The position numbers were made by a program, and so were the translations under genes. Below are positions 1,374 through 9,700 of a DNA stretch of 64,000 nt, piece after piece. Origin of the DNA: Bacteroidota bacterium (GTDB lineage: Bacteria; Bacteroidota; JABWAT01); assembly GCA_013360915.1 (NCBI GenBank), contig JABWAT010000012.1, positions 1 through 64,000 of the forward strand, in the 5' to 3' direction. Positions within the stretch are counted from its first letter, which is position 1. Each line of letters starts with the position of its first letter. The notes beneath the pieces are model-generated. The model saw only the letters and a list, made by a program, of their open reading frames with translations, was not told the DNA's origin and did not search any database.

Positions 1374-1511
1374 TCACAACCCAAAATACCGGAATTCGGC
1401 TCCCGGTGTTTCCAGGGCGTAGAGGATGAACAGAATCATCAGTAGGTACACAACGGTGATGAGTCCATTGGCGAGAGGTTTGGGAAGGTATTTACATAAA
1501 AAAGAATACAT
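1374..1511 (-). CDS. DltX-like 45-aa membrane microprotein
   Basis: A 45-codon frame starts at the ATG at 1511 and overlaps the MBOAT gene by 20 nt. It has a short basic N-terminus (MYSFLCKYLPKP), one strong membrane helix (~16-33, GLITVVYLLMILFILYAL) and the C-terminal tail ETPGAEFRYFGL. One helix plus a terminal F-x-Y-F-x-(hydrophobic) motif is the architecture of DltX, the ~50-residue partner in D-alanylation. The same motif ends many AlgI/DltB-family MBOAT proteins, where the tyrosine is held to be the acyl relay residue. Inference: this peptide takes the acyl group from the MBOAT protein outside the membrane. The alternative is a detached C-terminus of the MBOAT gene created by a frameshift in the T-run near 1500. 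Last gene of the operon. Confidence 0.65.
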   Translation of the reverse strand: MYSFLCKYLPKPLANGLITVVYLLMILFILYALETPGAEFRYFGL

Positions 1512-2646
1512 AACGCCCGATGGTATGGAATAAGTCGGTGTAAATGGTCAGGGATTTTTCAAGACTGTGTTCCTTGGTGATGGCAAAACTGAGGATGACC
1601 ACCTGAAGGGTAAAGACAATACTGATGGCCCGTTTCCACCAGGGACTGCTTTCAGGTGCAGGCCGAACCGACCGGTACCATTGCCAGATGGCGATAGCTG
1701 CACCATGATACAACGCCCACAACAGATATCGCCAGGAAAGTTCATGCCACAACCCGATCACCAGCATTGTGCAGATCACACCGATATAGGCATTTCTGGT
1801 CTGGGCAAAAATGGGAAAAAACACATATCGTTTGGTCCAGTCGGTAAGCGACATGTGCCAGCGTTTCCAGAACTCATTGATGTTGACGGCCAAAAAAGGA
1901 AAGTTAAAGTTTTCGGGTAACCGGAATCCGGCCAAAAGCCCCGCTCCCAGAATGATATCGGTAAAGCCCGAGAATTGGAAATACAGGTTAGCTCCATACC
2001 GGATGCAATCGAGATAACCAGCCAGCCCGGGATCGGTGACGGCACCGCTATTGAGCCACTGATTAAACTTCATCGAAACCAGAAAATTGGCCAGTACCAC
2101 AATTTTAAAATACCCAAAAAGCAGTCGCTCCAGTCCTTCAGAAACCTGATCCAAAGACCATGAATGTGCTTGACGGTTTGTTTCAAAGTCGGGGTAACCG
2201 TGAATGGGACCAGCCGGCATGGTCAGTGGAAAAAACAACCAGGCCAGAAAGCCGGAAAAGGACAGAGATTCCACCTTTCCCTTATAAACCTCTGTCAGAA
2301 GATGAATGGCCTTGGGTATCAGGTAAGAGACGCCGATGGTTGCCAGCATCCAGGCCGGTGATACGTCGGGTCCCTGCCCGGTCAGCCATTTATTAACCAC
2401 AAATAAAACAGCGAGAATCGAAAGTCCGGCCAGCCAGGCAGCGGAGGATAACGATCCGGTTCTTATCAACCACCAGACACTGACGGCTGAAAACCCAAAA
2501 AACACCAGAGACCATGGCATCATGATGGCCAGAAACACCATTCCGGTCAACGCCATCAGCCAGGGCCAGGCCAGCCGGTTAGCCACGGCAAGCAGCAGAA
2601 TGGATCCGGTCAGAAAAAGGGTGAATTCAACGGACAGAATCTGCAT
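1492..2646 (-). CDS. MBOAT-family membrane O-acyltransferase, DltB/AlgI-like
   Basis: 384-residue polytopic membrane protein, close to DltB length (~400). Family hallmarks are present: NEFWKRWHMSLTDWTKRYVFFPI (the W-H-x-S loop) and MLVIGLWHELSWRYLLWALYHG, which holds the invariant catalytic His in 'LWH'. DltB has 'LWHG' where this has 'LWHE'. In the Dlt system this protein passes an acyl group from a cytosolic carrier protein across the membrane. The start at 2646 overlaps the SGNH gene by 20 nt, and the stop overlaps the microprotein by 20 nt. The C-terminus (..GRYVFFFM) lacks the usual F-x-Y-F tail, which is instead carried by the downstream 45-residue peptide. Substrate and acceptor are unknown. 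Confidence 0.88.
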   Translation of the reverse strand: MQILSVEFTLFLTGSILLLAVANRLAWPWLMALTGMVFLAIMMPWSLVFFGFSAVSVWWLIRTGSLSSAAWLAGLSILAVLFVVNKWLTGQGPDVSPAWMLATIGVSYLIPKAIHLLTEVYKGKVESLSFSGFLAWLFFPLTMPAGPIHGYPDFETNRQAHSWSLDQVSEGLERLLFGYFKIVVLANFLVSMKFNQWLNSGAVTDPGLAGYLDCIRYGANLYFQFSGFTDIILGAGLLAGFRLPENFNFPFLAVNINEFWKRWHMSLTDWTKRYVFFPIFAQTRNAYIGVICTMLVIGLWHELSWRYLLWALYHGAAIAIWQWYRSVRPAPESSPWWKRAISIVFTLQVVILSFAITKEHSLEKSLTIYTDLFHTIGRYVFFFM

Positions 2647-3568
2647 ACACCTCCTGATTGACCAGTTGAATAATGGCAGGAAGTAACTGTCGGCGGCCCT
2701 GAATGTTCAGATGTCCCGGATCACGGAACAGCCTGTTTTCAGGTACCGGAATGGACGGCCAGATAGCAACTGCCTGACTATCTGAAAACGCACGGCTGAA
2801 TTCGGACGTGAATTGGGTTTTCAATCCAACTAAAATTGGGTTTTTTTCAAATTGGGCAATTCGAGGCAATACCAGAATCCGGATTCGGGTGCCCATTGCC
2901 GATAGATCGAGCAAGCGCTGAATCAGGTCGGGAGACAGTAGTGGATGATCGGAAAGAAAACCCTGGCTGAGACCATCTGCTTTCGATTCCAGTTCCTCTG
3001 GTTTTACTTCCCGTTTCAGCTGACGCTTGTTTCTTTTATTGGTCAGAAATTCTGTCTCATCCTCGGGAGAATTGGCACGGAGGGCAAATTTGAGAAAATT
3101 GTCCTCTGCTCCGGCAAGTGATCGAATCTTTCCCCTGAAAATTTCAAGCGGACTTTCGGCCGGTGTCGGTCGGTTCGTCAGCAGTAAGGACTGATCAATC
3201 ACCAGCAAATCGGGCGGATGTTGAATAATCATATCCAATACAGGCAGGTAGTCCAATGCCGATCCCTGATACCGAATGAACCGGACAGATTTTACGACTT
3301 TTCCTGTCCTTTGGGTAAATGCTGTTTCAAAGGAGTTATCGAAAGGAACCGCATGTTTCAGAATCGAGGAGCCCAGAAATACCACAACCGGGGTTTCGGT
3401 TTTGGTTCTGATTTGCAGCAATCGCTCCTGTGCCTGCTGGTTCAATGCCGCCTTAATAGCTCCGGTTTCTGCCGACAGCAACCAGACTGCCAGGCCTCCA
3501 GCAGCCAGAAGGACGGTTAGCCAGACACCCGGGCCGGGAAACCGCTGCTCAGTTTTTACGTCGTTCAT
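2627..3568 (-). CDS. membrane-anchored SGNH hydrolase-like protein, DltD-like
   Basis: 313 residues from the ATG at 3568, preceded by GGATGG; upstream in-frame codons lie inside the previous gene. One N-terminal membrane helix (~13-32, VWLTVLLAAGGLAVWLL), then an extracytoplasmic domain. FLGSSILKHA (~65-74) carries the GSS nucleophile Ser, and DPGHLNIQGRRQL near the C-terminus carries the Asp-x-x-His pair of SGNH enzymes. The topology (N-in, single helix, SGNH domain outside) and the DPGHLN..G block resemble DltD and AlgJ/AlgX-type proteins, which complete acyl transfer onto an envelope polymer. It overlaps both neighbours by 20 nt. Family membership is well supported; acyltransferase rather than hydrolase activity is inferred from context. 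Confidence 0.75.
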   Translation of the reverse strand: MNDVKTEQRFPGPGVWLTVLLAAGGLAVWLLSAETGAIKAALNQQAQERLLQIRTKTETPVVVFLGSSILKHAVPFDNSFETAFTQRTGKVVKSVRFIRYQGSALDYLPVLDMIIQHPPDLLVIDQSLLLTNRPTPAESPLEIFRGKIRSLAGAEDNFLKFALRANSPEDETEFLTNKRNKRQLKREVKPEELESKADGLSQGFLSDHPLLSPDLIQRLLDLSAMGTRIRILVLPRIAQFEKNPILVGLKTQFTSEFSRAFSDSQAVAIWPSIPVPENRLFRDPGHLNIQGRRQLLPAIIQLVNQEVYADSVR

Positions 3569-5372
3569 TGACCATCCGGATAGCGGTTCCGAGTGAATCG
3601 ATGGAAATGACATCCCGGGTCGAAAACCGGATGCCAAATTCCTTTTCAAGTCCTGTGACCAGGTTCATGTGACCGAGAGAATCCCAGCCGCGGGTCGAAG
3701 CCGCATTGGTCTGCTCGGTCAACGATTGAACCGGACTGCTGAATGCCTTTGCGGCAATGCGGAACACCCGGTCGTGGGTATCAGTGGCGTTTGAAGGATG
3801 GGACGCACCTTCGCTGATTTTCTTCTGAATCAATTCCCGGACTTCGTTGATTTTAACTTTCCCTGCCGGACCTTTGGGTAAATCACCCAGAAACACAATC
3901 TGATCGGGGACGTGCTCGGGGGCCAGAAACTCCCGGCTTGCCTGAAGAATATCCTGTTCGGATGGATGCTGACCTTCTTTTAGATGAACGGCTACCAGAA
4001 CCCGCTCACCCCAGGTGTCATCGGGAAATCCGACCGCGAGACATTCCAGCACGGCCTGATTCCGGTTAATAGCAGCCGTCACTTCTTCGGCATACACATT
4101 TACTCCACCACGGATGATCAGGTTTTTCTTCCGGCCGGTTATGTGAACAAATCCATCTTCATCCACCATTGCAAGATCACCGGTTTTAAACCATCCATCT
4201 GCCATCACTTCTGATGTTGCTGCCGGATTCCGGTAATATCCAGTCAACAGGTTGGGGCCCCTCAGAAATAATTCACCCGGTCCGGAATCCTGACCGGGTT
4301 CCCGATCAATCCGGATCTCACAATCCACCGGCTTACCAATGGTTCCGATCTTCATGATATCAGCAGACGGACCGCAAAAAATGCCACCGGTAACCGATTC
4401 GGTAAGACCGTACATATTATACAGGGGTTTTCCGAAGGTGGAAACAAACGATTCCCATAAGGACACTTCCAGTTTACTGGCGCTGGAAAGGGAGTATCTG
4501 AAATCGGGGCTATTCAGCGAATCGGTGAATCCTTCCGACATTTTCTGCATGAACATCAGCATGGTCGGGACAGTCACGAAATGGGTGATCCGATACCGTT
4601 TGAAAGCCTGAAACAGGTCGGGAATGGTTTGAATGGAAAATCCGAATGGTCGAACCCAGGCCGATCCGCACCAGGCGTTCAGAAACAAACCCTGAATCAG
4701 ACCATCAGCATGATGACCGGGTAAAATATTCAGCATCCGGTCGCCGGGTTTGTATCCGTAAACGTTCCGGAAGGTTTCCAGATGGGCAATCAGTGCTCCG
4801 TAAGAGATCATGACCCCTTTGGGTTCTGATGTCGTCCCCGAGGTAAATAACACGTAAGCCAACGTTTCGGATGGGACAGTAACCGGGGCCGGATTAAGTG
4901 CATCACCGGAAGAAAGAATCGAGACCAGTGATGGTTCTGCCGCGGAATCGGGTGCTGTGGTTTTGATAAATTTCGAAAGCAGGGACCCGGTTTTTTTGAC
5001 TGCGGAACCGGGAGTCAGCACACGGACTTCAGCGGACACTCCGGGAACCGTCTGATCCGAAACGACCACTTTCACGCCGGTTTTTTCAATTAGCGATTTC
5101 AATCCGGCAGGCGTGGTTCCGGCATCGGCAATCAGCACGGGTTTGCCCGACAGCAACTGCGTGTAAATCACCACCGCCTGATGCCATGGATCGGAAAGCG
5201 CAATCAGTATCTCGTTATCAGAGGAATGATTGGCAACCAGCCAGGCGTTGAACCGGCGGCAGGCCAACGCCAGATCACCATACGTGTACTGTCCGCTCCC
5301 GGTAATCAGATACAGATCATCGGGTGAATCGGGTTGAAAAGCGCGCTTGAAAAGTAATTGAGGATTCAGCAT
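3549..5372 (-). CDS. AMP-ligase fused to acyl carrier protein (DltA+DltC-like)
   Basis: 607 residues. Residues ~1-510 are an ANL-superfamily adenylating enzyme: YVLFTSGTTSEPKGV (P-loop/A3), MYGLTES (A5), GWFKTGDLAMVDEDG (A7), GRKKNLIIRGG (A8) and GPAGKVKI with the A10 catalytic Lys. Residues ~525-607 are a carrier protein whose phosphopantetheine Ser lies in GWDSLGHMNLV. Activation and carrier loading are therefore on one chain, whereas Gram-positive dlt operons have separate DltA and DltC. The reaction would be acid + ATP to acyl-AMP, then acyl-S-carrier. The acid cannot be read from the sequence: it could be an amino acid, a beta-amino acid or a short acyl group. RBS AAGGAA lies 3 nt before the ATG at 5372. 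Next gene in the operon is the SGNH protein. Confidence 0.85.
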   Translation of the reverse strand: MLNPQLLFKRAFQPDSPDDLYLITGSGQYTYGDLALACRRFNAWLVANHSSDNEILIALSDPWHQAVVIYTQLLSGKPVLIADAGTTPAGLKSLIEKTGVKVVVSDQTVPGVSAEVRVLTPGSAVKKTGSLLSKFIKTTAPDSAAEPSLVSILSSGDALNPAPVTVPSETLAYVLFTSGTTSEPKGVMISYGALIAHLETFRNVYGYKPGDRMLNILPGHHADGLIQGLFLNAWCGSAWVRPFGFSIQTIPDLFQAFKRYRITHFVTVPTMLMFMQKMSEGFTDSLNSPDFRYSLSSASKLEVSLWESFVSTFGKPLYNMYGLTESVTGGIFCGPSADIMKIGTIGKPVDCEIRIDREPGQDSGPGELFLRGPNLLTGYYRNPAATSEVMADGWFKTGDLAMVDEDGFVHITGRKKNLIIRGGVNVYAEEVTAAINRNQAVLECLAVGFPDDTWGERVLVAVHLKEGQHPSEQDILQASREFLAPEHVPDQIVFLGDLPKGPAGKVKINEVRELIQKKISEGASHPSNATDTHDRVFRIAAKAFSSPVQSLTEQTNAASTRGWDSLGHMNLVTGLEKEFGIRFSTRDVISIDSLGTAIRMVNERRKN

Positions 5373-5379
5373 GGTTTCC

Positions 5380-8235
5380 TTAATCGGTGGGTAACAAATT
5401 GGCTAATTGTGTGCGCAGTGTTTTTCCATTTACGCCAGAGGGAATGGATTCCACTTTGAAATACCGGTCGGGTAATTTCCCCGGCCCCAGATGACTGGTG
5501 ATAAACTGGTTCAAACCAGATTGAATGGAGTCGATGGAAACGCCCGTGCGTAGAACCAAAGCTGCAAAAATACGCTCCTCACCGGTTGAACTCGTCTTTG
5601 AAACCACACCTGCATGTTCCACATCGGGATGTGCAACCAGAACCGATTCCAGTTCATCCGGAATCAGAATATTGCCATCCCGGGTTTTGATGATGTCCCG
5701 AATCCGTCCCTTGATCAGAATATCCTCGCCAGGCAGACGAACCACGCGATCGCCTGTGAAGAAATATCCCGTTCCGGGATTGGATCCCGGCTGATTCCAG
5801 TATCCCGACATGAGATTCAGACTGAAGATGGCCAGTTCGCCCGGCTGATCATCCCGTATCAGATTTCCATCCGGATCTAATACATGCGCCAGACAATCGA
5901 CCGGTTTACCAATGGAATCCGGTACCGGTTCTTCACCGGCTCGTTGTGACACGCAGATACCCGAAGTTTCCGTCAGGCCGTAATAGTTCAAAACCGGAAC
6001 GGATGTCAGTTGTTCAAATCCGGTTTTCACAGCATCCGGAAGTGCCGTTCCGGTGCAGAGAACCAGCTTTAGATGATTAAATGCATAAACAGGAAGGTGT
6101 TCCCTGAAAGCCAGCACCTGTCTTAGAAACGCAGGAACGGTGCTCATGTGGGTGACCTGATTGCGGTAGAGGATATCAAGCAGGGCCGGTAAATGGCCAC
6201 GGTCTTCCGCCGGGGCAATGATGACCGGACAAGCGGCTGCAACGGTGGCAAAGACCGGATTCCTGAGTCCGCTCATGGTAAAGGCATCGCCGGGTGAGAG
6301 AAAACGGGTTTCTTCATTCATCCCGAATGCTTTTTCTGCATTCCAGGTACTGCGGAACATAGCCCGGTGAGACAGACAAACTCCCTTGGGCAGATTGGTT
6401 GTTCCAGATGTGAACAAAATAACAGCCAGATCTTCGGGTCCCGGAGACCTGGTCGGATAGGACCCACCATCCGATTCCTCGAGCCAGCCGGAAAGCGTTG
6501 GGAAGTTGCCGCTGTTGTTTACTTCAGGATCATCGGTTTCGATGAGTGGAACAGTCAGTGTCACATTGGTAACCGGCGAACCAGGATGCGCAAATATGAG
6601 TGACGGTTTCACCTGTTCAATAATCCGTTGACAGTTGTCGGCAGGCAGGGCCGGATCGATGGGAACCGCCACCATGCCTTCCAGAACAGCCGCCCAGATA
6701 ATCAGGGCCACCTCTTCCTGAAAGGGGGACTGAATCAGAATACGGTCACCCGGCCGGAATCTTTGCTGCAACAACCGGTTTCTGATAAGACCAACCAGTT
6801 CATCGGCTTGCGAAAAGGTATAACCCGATCCGTCTGCTCCTGAAACCAGCCATTGGGTATCAGGAGCGTGATCCTGCGTTTTTTTCCACAGATGGGCCAG
6901 CGTCATCTGATCCATGGAGGTGTGCAACTGCTGGGTGGAATGAAGAAACTGCAACCGGAAGGTGGAAGAGGGTACCCGGAAAACCGAACACACTTTCAAA
7001 TCAATGAGGTGTGTGAGTCTGGACTCGAATTCGGATTCAGGCAGAGGGAGTTTTTGCCGGATTTCATCGACCGACAATCCTTCCCCGGCCAGGTACAGGA
7101 TTTTGCAGTCGGTTACCGACAGATCAACCGGAAAGTCACTGAATTGTTTTTTGAAAATAGGATGCCGGAACAGAAAGTAGCTGACCGTGTCGTTGCGGTA
7201 AGCCGGATCCAGCGTGGCGATTCCACGGTTCAGATCCAGCCGGATGGCCGGATTGACAATGATGTGCAGATCGGAGCCACTCAGACCAGGAACCGGGCGT
7301 TTTTTAAGCGGAACAACAGGAAACGAATTGGGAAGAATGGCGAGCAGACCGTTGTATTCCGGCTGATCGGGAGAGGATTCTGCCTGAATGGTTTCGGGGC
7401 GATCATACAGCACCGGTTCGGAAAGGACCAGTCCTTTCAGCGGAAGGTCTTTCAGGCGTTTTTTAAAGTAGAAGTCGTACTCTTTTCCATGCCGGATGGA
7501 TCCGCCCCGTTCAAAAAAGGGATCGGGTTCGTGGTTCGACATGTGAACGTGTGGGAAGAAAATGAGTCCGTCTGATGTGCGCAGCCGAAGCAACTCATTC
7601 ACCACGTTGCTCATGGAGTACCGGTGCATGGTATCGAGACCGTACACCAGTTTCACCGACTGGCTGAGAAGGGGAAGCGGTTGATTCATGGAGTGAAACA
7701 GAACCGAAACCCTGTCGGGCAACCGGTTTTCGCCATACCAATACCAGAAACCGGGATAGCCAAGTGTATCATTGTTTCCTTCCCATACCGACACAATCTG
7801 CTGATCGGGAAACAATCCGCTCAGGTAGCCGGGAGTCCAGCCGGTGCGGCACCAGGTGTCGAGAATAACCTCGCCGGGTTTTAACCGCGGAGTGATTTTT
7901 TCAATAAAGGGTTCGAAGGCAACTGAGGATTCATTGAACGGCTGCATACCGGCGTAAATATCATACACTTTGCGGGCTGCCTTCTTCTCCAGAAAATCCT
8001 CATAGACCGCTGGTGGCTGACCGAGCAGGTTAATCAATGTCTGAAACGGTCCCACCAGATCATCGGAAAGCATGTCGCGCGTCTCGGTGAAAAAATACAG
8101 TCTTCCCACAGCCGGGGTGGCGGTGACGCATTTCCCGCACATCATCAGGTCGAAAGCCGATTCCCTGATGAGAATACCCGTTGACCGTCGTTCCAGTGGT
8201 TCCTGGCAGCGTGGACAAATCAGTAATGAATCCAT
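5380..8235 (-). CDS. Zn-ribbon/methyltransferase-like/AMP-ligase fusion protein
   Basis: 951 residues from the ATG at 8235 (MDSLLICPRCQEPL); a longer frame to 8379 would run into the aminotransferase gene. Order: Zn-ribbon CPRC...CGKC (~7-35), methyltransferase-like Rossmann region (~60-330), a linker with a winged-helix look (~390-450), and an ANL adenylation domain (~480-951). The ligase has LAVILFTSGTTNLPKGV, YYGLTETSG, YFFTGDRV, KGRIRDIIK and a C-terminal Lys in GVNGKTLRTQL, and has no carrier domain. The methyltransferase motif I is degenerate (ILDTWCRTGW instead of LDxGCGxG) and the acidic end of strand 2 is weak, so this half may bind rather than methylate. A second ligase in one operon suggests two activated acids, or activation of a precursor. 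Seven nt separate it from the next gene. Confidence 0.75.
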   Translation of the reverse strand: MDSLLICPRCQEPLERRSTGILIRESAFDLMMCGKCVTATPAVGRLYFFTETRDMLSDDLVGPFQTLINLLGQPPAVYEDFLEKKAARKVYDIYAGMQPFNESSVAFEPFIEKITPRLKPGEVILDTWCRTGWTPGYLSGLFPDQQIVSVWEGNNDTLGYPGFWYWYGENRLPDRVSVLFHSMNQPLPLLSQSVKLVYGLDTMHRYSMSNVVNELLRLRTSDGLIFFPHVHMSNHEPDPFFERGGSIRHGKEYDFYFKKRLKDLPLKGLVLSEPVLYDRPETIQAESSPDQPEYNGLLAILPNSFPVVPLKKRPVPGLSGSDLHIIVNPAIRLDLNRGIATLDPAYRNDTVSYFLFRHPIFKKQFSDFPVDLSVTDCKILYLAGEGLSVDEIRQKLPLPESEFESRLTHLIDLKVCSVFRVPSSTFRLQFLHSTQQLHTSMDQMTLAHLWKKTQDHAPDTQWLVSGADGSGYTFSQADELVGLIRNRLLQQRFRPGDRILIQSPFQEEVALIIWAAVLEGMVAVPIDPALPADNCQRIIEQVKPSLIFAHPGSPVTNVTLTVPLIETDDPEVNNSGNFPTLSGWLEESDGGSYPTRSPGPEDLAVILFTSGTTNLPKGVCLSHRAMFRSTWNAEKAFGMNEETRFLSPGDAFTMSGLRNPVFATVAAACPVIIAPAEDRGHLPALLDILYRNQVTHMSTVPAFLRQVLAFREHLPVYAFNHLKLVLCTGTALPDAVKTGFEQLTSVPVLNYYGLTETSGICVSQRAGEEPVPDSIGKPVDCLAHVLDPDGNLIRDDQPGELAIFSLNLMSGYWNQPGSNPGTGYFFTGDRVVRLPGEDILIKGRIRDIIKTRDGNILIPDELESVLVAHPDVEHAGVVSKTSSTGEERIFAALVLRTGVSIDSIQSGLNQFITSHLGPGKLPDRYFKVESIPSGVNGKTLRTQLANLLPTD

Positions 8236-8323
8236 GATTAAACGTGTCCTGTCTGGTTGGTTAGGTTTCTGCTCGGGTCGTTGTCTGGAGAAGTTGAACT
8301 GAATATGGTTACGGATCGGAACA

Positions 8324-9700
8324 TCAGTTTTTTCCAATGGCCTCATCAGCCAGCAACAGTGCTTCATCCAACCTGTCAATTCCCAGTTGAAGTTCCTCCG
8401 GACTGATGGTCAGCGGGGGTGCAATAAATACATAATTCCACCGGATAAAAGTTAACAAACCCAATTCCCGCAACCGGCTGGCAATGGTATTCATCACGCC
8501 CATTTCTGCAGGTTTTGCATTGTAGGGCACCAGCGGTTCTTTTGTTTGCCGGTCTTTCACCAGTTCCAGACAGCCCAACAGTCCGGTATTTCTGAAATCA
8601 CCAATGGATGGATGCCGGGCGATCAATCCAGCAACGTGATGTTCAACAAGTGCTCCCGTTTCGGCAGCACGGTTAATCAACTCATCATCTTCATAAATGG
8701 AAAGCACTTCGAGCGCAGCAGCACAACTGACCGGATGCGCGGCGTAAGTTAATCCCAGCATGAGCGCTTTATCATCGAACAGTGCTGCAAGTTGGTTACT
8801 GATCATCAGTGCACCGAGTGGCAGATACCCCGAGGTGATGCCTTTTGCCATGGTGATCATGTCGGGTACAACGCCGTGGTGCTGGAATCCGAACCACTTA
8901 CCGGTGCGGCCAAAGCCAGACATGACTTCATCGGCAATGAGCAGAATGCCGTACTCATCGCAGAGTTCCCTGAGCTGCCGCCAATAGTCAGGCGGATACT
9001 TAATACATCCGCTCGTCCCGCTTTCCCCTTCCATGAGGATGGCGGCGACGCTTTCCCGGCCCTCAAATTCAATGATCCGTCTGATGTGTGAAACACATTC
9101 ATACCTGCAGGCTCCGACCTGTTGCCCGAACGGACACCGGTAACAATAGGGATCTTCCACATGAATCATGTTTGGAACCTGCTGGGAATCCATGGCCAGA
9201 CGCCGCGGATCGCCGGCAGCAGAAAGCGCACCATACGATGCACCATGAAAAGCCCGGTACCGGCCAATGATTTTATGACGGCCCGTTGCCATCCGTGCCA
9301 GTTTGATGGCGTTTTCCACCGCACTGGCTCCACAAACCGTGAACAAGGTTTTCCCGAAGGACTCACCTGCTAATTCAGCAAGTTTTTTAGCCAATTTGCC
9401 GCGAACGTTTGTCACATGCCCGGGGGTGATATAGCTGACCTTTTGCATCTGTTTCACGACCGCATCCGTCACCCGCTGATTGCCATGTCCGATGTTCACA
9501 TTCATTAATCCGGATGAGAAGTCGAGGTAGCGCTTGCCGGTAGCATCCACCAGATACACGCCTTCCGCCCGGTCAATCACCAGGGGATTCAGACCCTTCT
9601 GTTTGCTCCAGGGAAAAAGAGTGTAAGTCAGGTTGTTTTCCAGAATGGTTTCAGGTGGAGGATCCGGGCGGTTTATCTGGTTTTCTTGTTTAGACTTCAT
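8324..9700 (-). CDS. class III (omega) aminotransferase, taurine/beta-alanine:pyruvate-like
   Basis: 458-residue PLP enzyme of fold type I. The PLP Lys is in ITMAKGITSGYLPLG, the Asp in LLIADEVMSGFGRTGKW, and the substrate-loop Arg in FIRWNYVFIAPPL. Long blocks (GTSGCIKYPPDYW, LTYAAHPVSCAAALEV, NTGLLGCLELVKDRQTKEP) closely resemble taurine-pyruvate and beta-alanine-pyruvate aminotransferases, which act on omega-amino acids. First gene of the six-gene minus operon, 88 nt ahead of the ligase fusion. Inference: it makes or removes the amino group of the acid that the operon activates, for example an omega-amino acid. The upstream region has a weak TATCTTAC box and no clear ribosome site. Exact substrate unknown. 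Confidence 0.85.
   Translation of the reverse strand: MKSKQENQINRPDPPPETILENNLTYTLFPWSKQKGLNPLVIDRAEGVYLVDATGKRYLDFSSGLMNVNIGHGNQRVTDAVVKQMQKVSYITPGHVTNVRGKLAKKLAELAGESFGKTLFTVCGASAVENAIKLARMATGRHKIIGRYRAFHGASYGALSAAGDPRRLAMDSQQVPNMIHVEDPYCYRCPFGQQVGACRYECVSHIRRIIEFEGRESVAAILMEGESGTSGCIKYPPDYWRQLRELCDEYGILLIADEVMSGFGRTGKWFGFQHHGVVPDMITMAKGITSGYLPLGALMISNQLAALFDDKALMLGLTYAAHPVSCAAALEVLSIYEDDELINRAAETGALVEHHVAGLIARHPSIGDFRNTGLLGCLELVKDRQTKEPLVPYNAKPAEMGVMNTIASRLRELGLLTFIRWNYVFIAPPLTISPEELQLGIDRLDEALLLADEAIGKN

Follow-up and report, generated by a model that had tools for sequence, protein, structure and literature searches.

The question raised by this locus is whether a set of genes resembling the Dlt machinery encodes a D-alanylation system or a system dedicated to another acyl group. 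The locus lies on the minus strand between positions 1374 and 9700 of a 64,000-nucleotide window, the window being the whole stretch of DNA that was analysed. Six adjacent ORFs are present there in the ORF list, in the order and at the position given for a six-gene operon in the preliminary description of this DNA. Searches with the Pfam and NCBIfam models left the 340-aa and 45-aa ORFs without any match. In the core five genes, neighbours overlap or are separated by at most 8 bp, while 88 bp lie between the aminotransferase gene and the ATG of the fusion gene. The fusion ORF comprises 999 aa when read from the TTG at 8379 and 951 aa from the ATG at 8235; the latter is the most likely start because homology to the Janthinobacterium ortholog begins there. 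For the SGNH gene, 3613 or 3568 is a more probable start than the TTG 3649, and a good ribosome-binding site was found at the start of the MBOAT gene. The features are the following:

8324 to 9700, minus strand: class III (omega) aminotransferase, 458 aa (PF00202, 294 bits; nearest solved structure 6jix)
5380 to 8235, minus strand: fusion of a Trm112-like zinc ribbon, a methyltransferase-fold domain and an AMP-forming ligase, 951 aa (PF00501, PF13193; ortholog in Janthinobacterium)
8128 to 8217, minus strand: zinc ribbon cysteines C7, C10, C33 and C36, invariant in three orthologs
7837 to 7863, minus strand: degenerate SAM-binding motif LDTWCRTGW (alignment of three orthologs)
3549 to 5372, minus strand: AMP-forming ligase with a C-terminal carrier (PP-binding) domain, 607 aa (PF00501, 187 bits; PF13193; PF00550, weak)
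4704 to 4706, minus strand: D223, predicted acidic pocket residue of the ligase-carrier fusion (alignment with the EntF Asp)
3678 to 3680, minus strand: S565 of the GWDSL motif, predicted phosphopantetheine attachment site (motif kept in Janthinobacterium)
2627 to 3649, minus strand: putative membrane-anchored SGNH acyltransferase (Ser at 3365-3367; D-x-x-H at 2711-2722)
1492 to 2646, minus strand: short DltB-type MBOAT, 384 aa, devoid of the C-terminal FxYFxF tail (H264 and H301 invariant)
1374 to 1511, minus strand: DltX-like single-helix peptide, 45 aa, kept in the family relative G002 and in Janthinobacterium
1386 to 1394, minus strand: F40-R41-Y42 of the C-terminal FRYFGL, whose Tyr is the predicted acyl carrier (invariant in three orthologs)

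The export half of the operon was analysed in the light of the known Tyr shuttles. In Dlt, the MBOAT transfers the acyl group of the carrier to the DltX Tyr and then on to the SGNH protein, whereas in PatA the acyl-carrying Tyr motif sits on the MBOAT itself (PMC12148441). The window MBOAT matches the Pfam MBOAT family with 64 bits and the DltB model TIGR04091 with 164 bits, below the cutoff of 375. Since no other NCBIfam model matched and this one spans most of the protein, the MBOAT can be classed from its sequence as homologous to DltB, not as a DltB equivalog. Its H264 and H301 are invariant across 15 MBOATs. With 384 aa and a C-terminus reading ...YVFFFM, it has no FxYFxF tail of its own and does not conform to the PatA/AlgI type, a MBOAT of about 460-570 aa carrying such a tail. 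The same distinction was found in a survey of 107 MBOATs (16 short and 91 long, a few near-duplicates included): the long proteins end in their own F-x-Y-F-x-F tail and the short ones stop before it. An adjacent small single-helix ORF ending in F-x-Y accompanies 10 of the 16 short MBOATs versus 4 of the 91 long proteins (Fisher p = 1.8e-7), a count that leaves out the Janthinobacterium peptide, which was seen by eye. A further MBOAT of the host genome is long and carries its own tail (L016).

The 45-aa peptide is consistent with such a microprotein. It consists of a single helix ending in FRYFGL, with the Tyr kept in three orthologs, and agrees with DltX in position, single helix and FxY tail; the DltX model PF12459 gave no match, models of this kind being low-powered at 45 aa. 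The SGNH call is unsupported by any Pfam model, and no match to the DltD family PF04914 was detected at an E-value of 0.05. The identity of the protein is nevertheless confirmed by its G-x-S and D-x-x-H motifs, in which G93, S95, D310 and H313 are invariant in 10 MBOAT-linked homologs, together with the top fold match of its structural model (pLDDT 67.6), which is PatB (7tjb, E-value 1.3e-4). The predicted proteins thus include the MBOAT His residues, the FxY microprotein and the SGNH partner of an MBOAT-SGNH acyl-Tyr shuttle, and the separate peptide corresponds to the Dlt form of that shuttle.

Two other arrangements were observed among the surveyed loci. Three Patescibacteria/Peregrinibacteria loci (L024 3052-5417, L031 8481-10843 and L037 8514-10831) share a conserved cassette made of an SGNH gene, a FIYNNF peptide and a short MBOAT, near which no ligase or carrier was seen. 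In two genomes of the host phylum (L152 7126-10698 and L153 8724-12278), a ligase of 577-581 aa and a separate small GWDSL carrier adjoin a long MBOAT with a FIYFQF tail; a carrier beside a tailed MBOAT is unexpected under the published scheme.

The loading half comprises two ligases, in both of which Pfam assigned AMP-binding domains; the sequence of each retains the catalytic Lys as well as the core motifs. The carrier domain of the 607-aa ligase scored 17.9 bits with PP-binding, under the Pfam cutoff of 20.8; this weak match is backed by the GWDSL carrier motif, kept in the Janthinobacterium ortholog. Against the DltA model TIGR01734 (cutoff 559.85), the operon ligases obtained 72 and 62 bits, and no protein of the whole host genome passed the cutoff. 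An unrelated ligase of that genome reached 94 bits, above both operon ligases, and by these profile scores neither of the two is DltA. Their nearest relatives differ: oxalyl-CoA and fatty acyl-CoA ligases for the carrier-fused ligase, NRPS adenylation domains in the PDB for the ligase of the zinc-ribbon fusion.

D223 of the carrier-fused ligase aligns with the substrate Asp of EntF, and the same residue is found in the Janthinobacterium ortholog. The equivalent amino-binding Asp residues are D235 in PheA, D197 in DltA and D230 in VinN (PMC11253843). In PheA numbering D223 falls at 235, or at 236 if the motif is read as the P-x-x-H-x-x-G of acyl-CoA ligases, so that an acidic pocket residue is predicted under either numbering. 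This suggests an amine-bearing acid as substrate; at the equivalent position the ligase of the zinc-ribbon fusion has an uncharged residue. We dropped any reading of the substrate from the ligase pocket code because of the one-residue alignment ambiguity between 235 and 236.

These data bear on the simplest alternative, namely that the locus is a true dlt operon, with a diverged DltA, that D-alanylates a polymer in the way of Bordetella dra. The architecture is the same, the acidic pocket residue of the carrier-fused ligase would fit, and D-alanylation beyond Gram-positives has already been reported, an outer-membrane component being D-alanylated by dra (PMC4448142). Compared by description, dra is Dlt-like as the operon is, but it adds D-Ala, whereas the window ligases fall outside the DltA family, their scores lying below that of the unrelated genome ligase and far from the cutoff of 560. 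Moreover, the carrier-fused ligase is closer to acyl-CoA ligases, a second ligase is unneeded for D-Ala, and a ligase adjoining a short MBOAT in Halioglobus gets 269 bits with DltA. Taken together, we hold a true dlt operon to be decidedly improbable. The Halioglobus locus itself (L026 8327-12505), which comprises an SGNH gene, a peptide, a short MBOAT and the ligase with its sub-cutoff score, is possibly a true Gram-negative dlt-like locus.

The second ligase is preceded by two N-terminal domains. The zinc ribbon was recognised by a profile match to the 60-aa chain 6zxw_H (E-value 1e-4) and a weak Pfam Trm112p match. The following domain was assigned a methyltransferase fold by Foldseek from a low-confidence AlphaFold model (pLDDT 49), used for the fold class only. 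The glycine-rich SAM motif of class I methyltransferases, canonically LDxGCGTG, is absent from it. Because this motif reads LDTWxRTGW in all three orthologs, ordinary SAM binding by the domain seems doubtful. At 7837-7863, an invariant Trp and Arg stand in place of the SAM-motif glycines in the three sequences.

Whether these genes form a unit was addressed by scanning 84,980 species genomes once with the window MBOAT as query. The best match, Janthinobacterium sp. S3T4, belongs to another phylum and encodes the fusion ligase, the ligase-carrier fusion, the SGNH protein, the MBOAT and the peptide, that is five of the six genes, in the same order and with 24-44% identity. The fusion ortholog, with its zinc ribbon, methyltransferase-like and ligase regions, has 969 aa and is 31% identical over 964 aligned residues; the ligase-carrier ortholog has 595 aa (33%), the SGNH ortholog 295 aa (24%) and the MBOAT ortholog 372 aa (40%), while the peptide ends in FRYGQI instead of FRYFGL. 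Since the whole order, including the tiny peptide, recurs in another phylum, the five-gene grouping is more than chance. Thus the gene order for which conservation in relatives had been proposed as a check is conserved, and both ligases of the two-ligase set singled out in the preliminary description are conserved parts of the unit.

A second relative, G002, belongs to the family of the host and contains a broken remnant. Its fusion gene is cut past the N-terminal part at a contig end, and its MBOAT gene is cut on the 5' side at the start of another contig, where the peptide gene is intact. As no ligase-carrier ortholog was seen in G002, the system there looks degraded. Related insertion-sequence ends lie at both cuts (L112 end; L113 1-1450). 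We also ran a profile of the N-terminal domain on genomes from the host phylum (395), the Janthinobacterium order (399) and the Janthinobacterium phylum (399). Full-length matches were obtained only in the host, G002 and Janthinobacterium, and no further full copy of the unit was found in these genomes. Three genomes (G211, G585 and G930) with weak partial matches (E-value about 1e-4) were not counted as members. A tblastn search of plasmids for relatives of the fusion protein returned generic NRPS/ligase matches only, none covering 80% of the query, and viral contigs held no relative of its N-terminal domain. The MBOATs of the window, G002 and Janthinobacterium group together on a long stem in the MBOAT tree (support 100/99). 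Conservation is therefore read from few sequences, with one complete relative beyond the window, and the rare, patchy distribution suggests horizontal transfer.

The recurrence across phyla also bears on the idea that the ligases and the carrier make a natural product, a siderophore or a lipopeptide, next to which the MBOAT genes are chance neighbours. The adenylation domain of the fusion protein, being nearest to NRPS domains, is what one would expect in that case. Yet the MBOAT, SGNH and peptide genes stay with the ligases from one phylum to the other, and the donor known for DltB is a carrier (PMC12148441). The siderophore or polyketide pathway that the preliminary description had set against its own reading finds no counterpart either, the operon having no condensation, ketosynthase or thioesterase domain. 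We regard this explanation as highly improbable.

The sixth gene behaves differently. The aminotransferase, whose best solved relative is the taurine:2-oxoglutarate aminotransferase 6jix, is likely co-transcribed with the core, because it precedes the core on the same strand and the 88-bp interval between them contains no terminator-like site. It is absent from the Janthinobacterium operon, none is found upstream of the G002 remnant, and family relatives have no close ortholog (32% identity at best). These absences rule it out as a core gene and do not bear out its earlier inclusion in the machine; it is probably an accessory gene outside the conserved core, whose role, limited to this genome, may be to provide or recycle the acid.

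A further alternative follows the earlier proposal that the acid is an omega-amino acid provided by the aminotransferase; all six genes would then serve to make and attach it, and it would be of the beta-alanine or GABA type. The position of the gene, the likeness to the taurine enzyme and D223 of the carrier-fused ligase all agree with this proposal, as does a Phycisphaerales locus in which the SGNH-peptide-MBOAT set is joined with a PLP enzyme. Against it stand the absences described above and the fact that the substrate of the aminotransferase is only a guess, so that we consider it unlikely. The Phycisphaerales locus (L022 8426-15078) contains an SGNH gene, a FRYQGF peptide, a short MBOAT, a PLP decarboxylase resembling the exosortase-A-associated enzyme, a gene that is possibly sulfotransferase-like and an AMP ligase. 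It represents a second case in which a Dlt-like layout includes an amino-acid enzyme.

The reading that we favour, with good though not full confidence, is that the operon encodes a carrier-dependent, Dlt-like transmembrane acylation machine, for which we infer each chemical step, the acyl group and the polymer. The acyl group transferred would probably be other than D-Ala, perhaps amine-bearing in view of D223, and its acceptor a surface or envelope polymer. In this scheme the ligase-carrier fusion would adenylate a carboxylic acid and attach it to the phosphopantetheine of the carrier domain in the same protein. The short MBOAT would take the acyl group from the carrier via H264/H301 and carry it across the membrane to Tyr42 of the peptide, from which it would reach the catalytic Ser of the SGNH protein, the latter esterifying a polymer or lipid of the periplasm or the surface. 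The second ligase, in the methyltransferase-fold fusion, would be a dedicated partner probably activating a second acid that either extends the carrier-bound group or supplies it. The host genome encodes an LpxC-FabZ fusion, read as such from its sequence, so that the host makes LPS. No 16S gene was found in the assembly, and the fusion suggests a host on the Bacteroidota/Chlorobi side. The preliminary description of a Dlt-like machine holds for the carrier, the DltB-type MBOAT, the FxY peptide, the SGNH partner, the LPS-bearing host and the two conserved ligases, and DltA is missing.

As a more tentative extension, on balance doubtful, the two ligases might jointly build an acyl group of composite nature on a single carrier, for instance an N-acylated or dipeptidyl amino acid, which would be exported to an outer-membrane polymer, the degenerate methyltransferase domain acting as a binding or modifying module. 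We know of no earlier account of transmembrane acylation fed by an assembly-line donor. The composite reading is motivated by macrolactam pathways, where a pair of adenylating enzymes serves a single carrier and the second of them attaches an amino acid to the one that the carrier already bears (PMC11284099). The operon would resemble such VinN/VinM pairs in having two adenylating enzymes for one carrier, but those pairs feed a polyketide synthase, whereas the operon has no synthase; beyond the ligase superfamily the comparison is by description.

Other known systems can be compared in the same way. Dlt (DltA, DltB, DltC, DltD and DltX), with which Gram-positive bacteria fix D-alanine to the cell wall, shares with the operon a ligase and carrier, a short tail-less MBOAT, a separate microprotein with a C-terminal FxY and an SGNH partner. 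The operon differs by having no DltA ortholog, by fusing ligase and carrier, by residing in an LPS-bearing host and by adding a second ligase whose fusion partners are a zinc ribbon and a methyltransferase-fold domain; by the models tested, the unit lacks the Dlt features for DltA, DltB and DltD. PatA/PatB and AlgI/AlgJ are alike in their MBOAT and SGNH proteins and acyl-Tyr intermediate, PatB being the best match of the window SGNH model, and differ in using acetyl-CoA as donor, in bearing FxYFxF on the MBOAT itself and in having no carrier or ligase. The transferase AlmG is not known to be an MBOAT/SGNH/microprotein set; AlmE/AlmF/AlmG, compared by description, thus resembles the operon in its adenylation enzyme and differs in its transferase. 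In this system, responsible for Vibrio lipid A glycylation, a DltA-resembling adenylation enzyme activates glycine for LPS (PMC11253843).

A text search, covering few subscription journals, retrieved no literature joining MBOAT, SGNH, carrier protein and adenylation. To our knowledge, a fused ligase-carrier together with a second ligase bearing a methyltransferase-like domain has not been known before. According to a 2025 account, MBOAT-SGNH pathways other than Dlt have neither a carrier protein nor a DltX-like microprotein (PMC12148441). The window operon departs from this account, as it has both, in an LPS-bearing host and with non-DltA ligases. This indicates that the carrier and microprotein design is a general export module able to accept other acyl groups. 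Janthinobacterium being a genus with cultivated strains, the compact gene set makes the acyl group and its target findable there.
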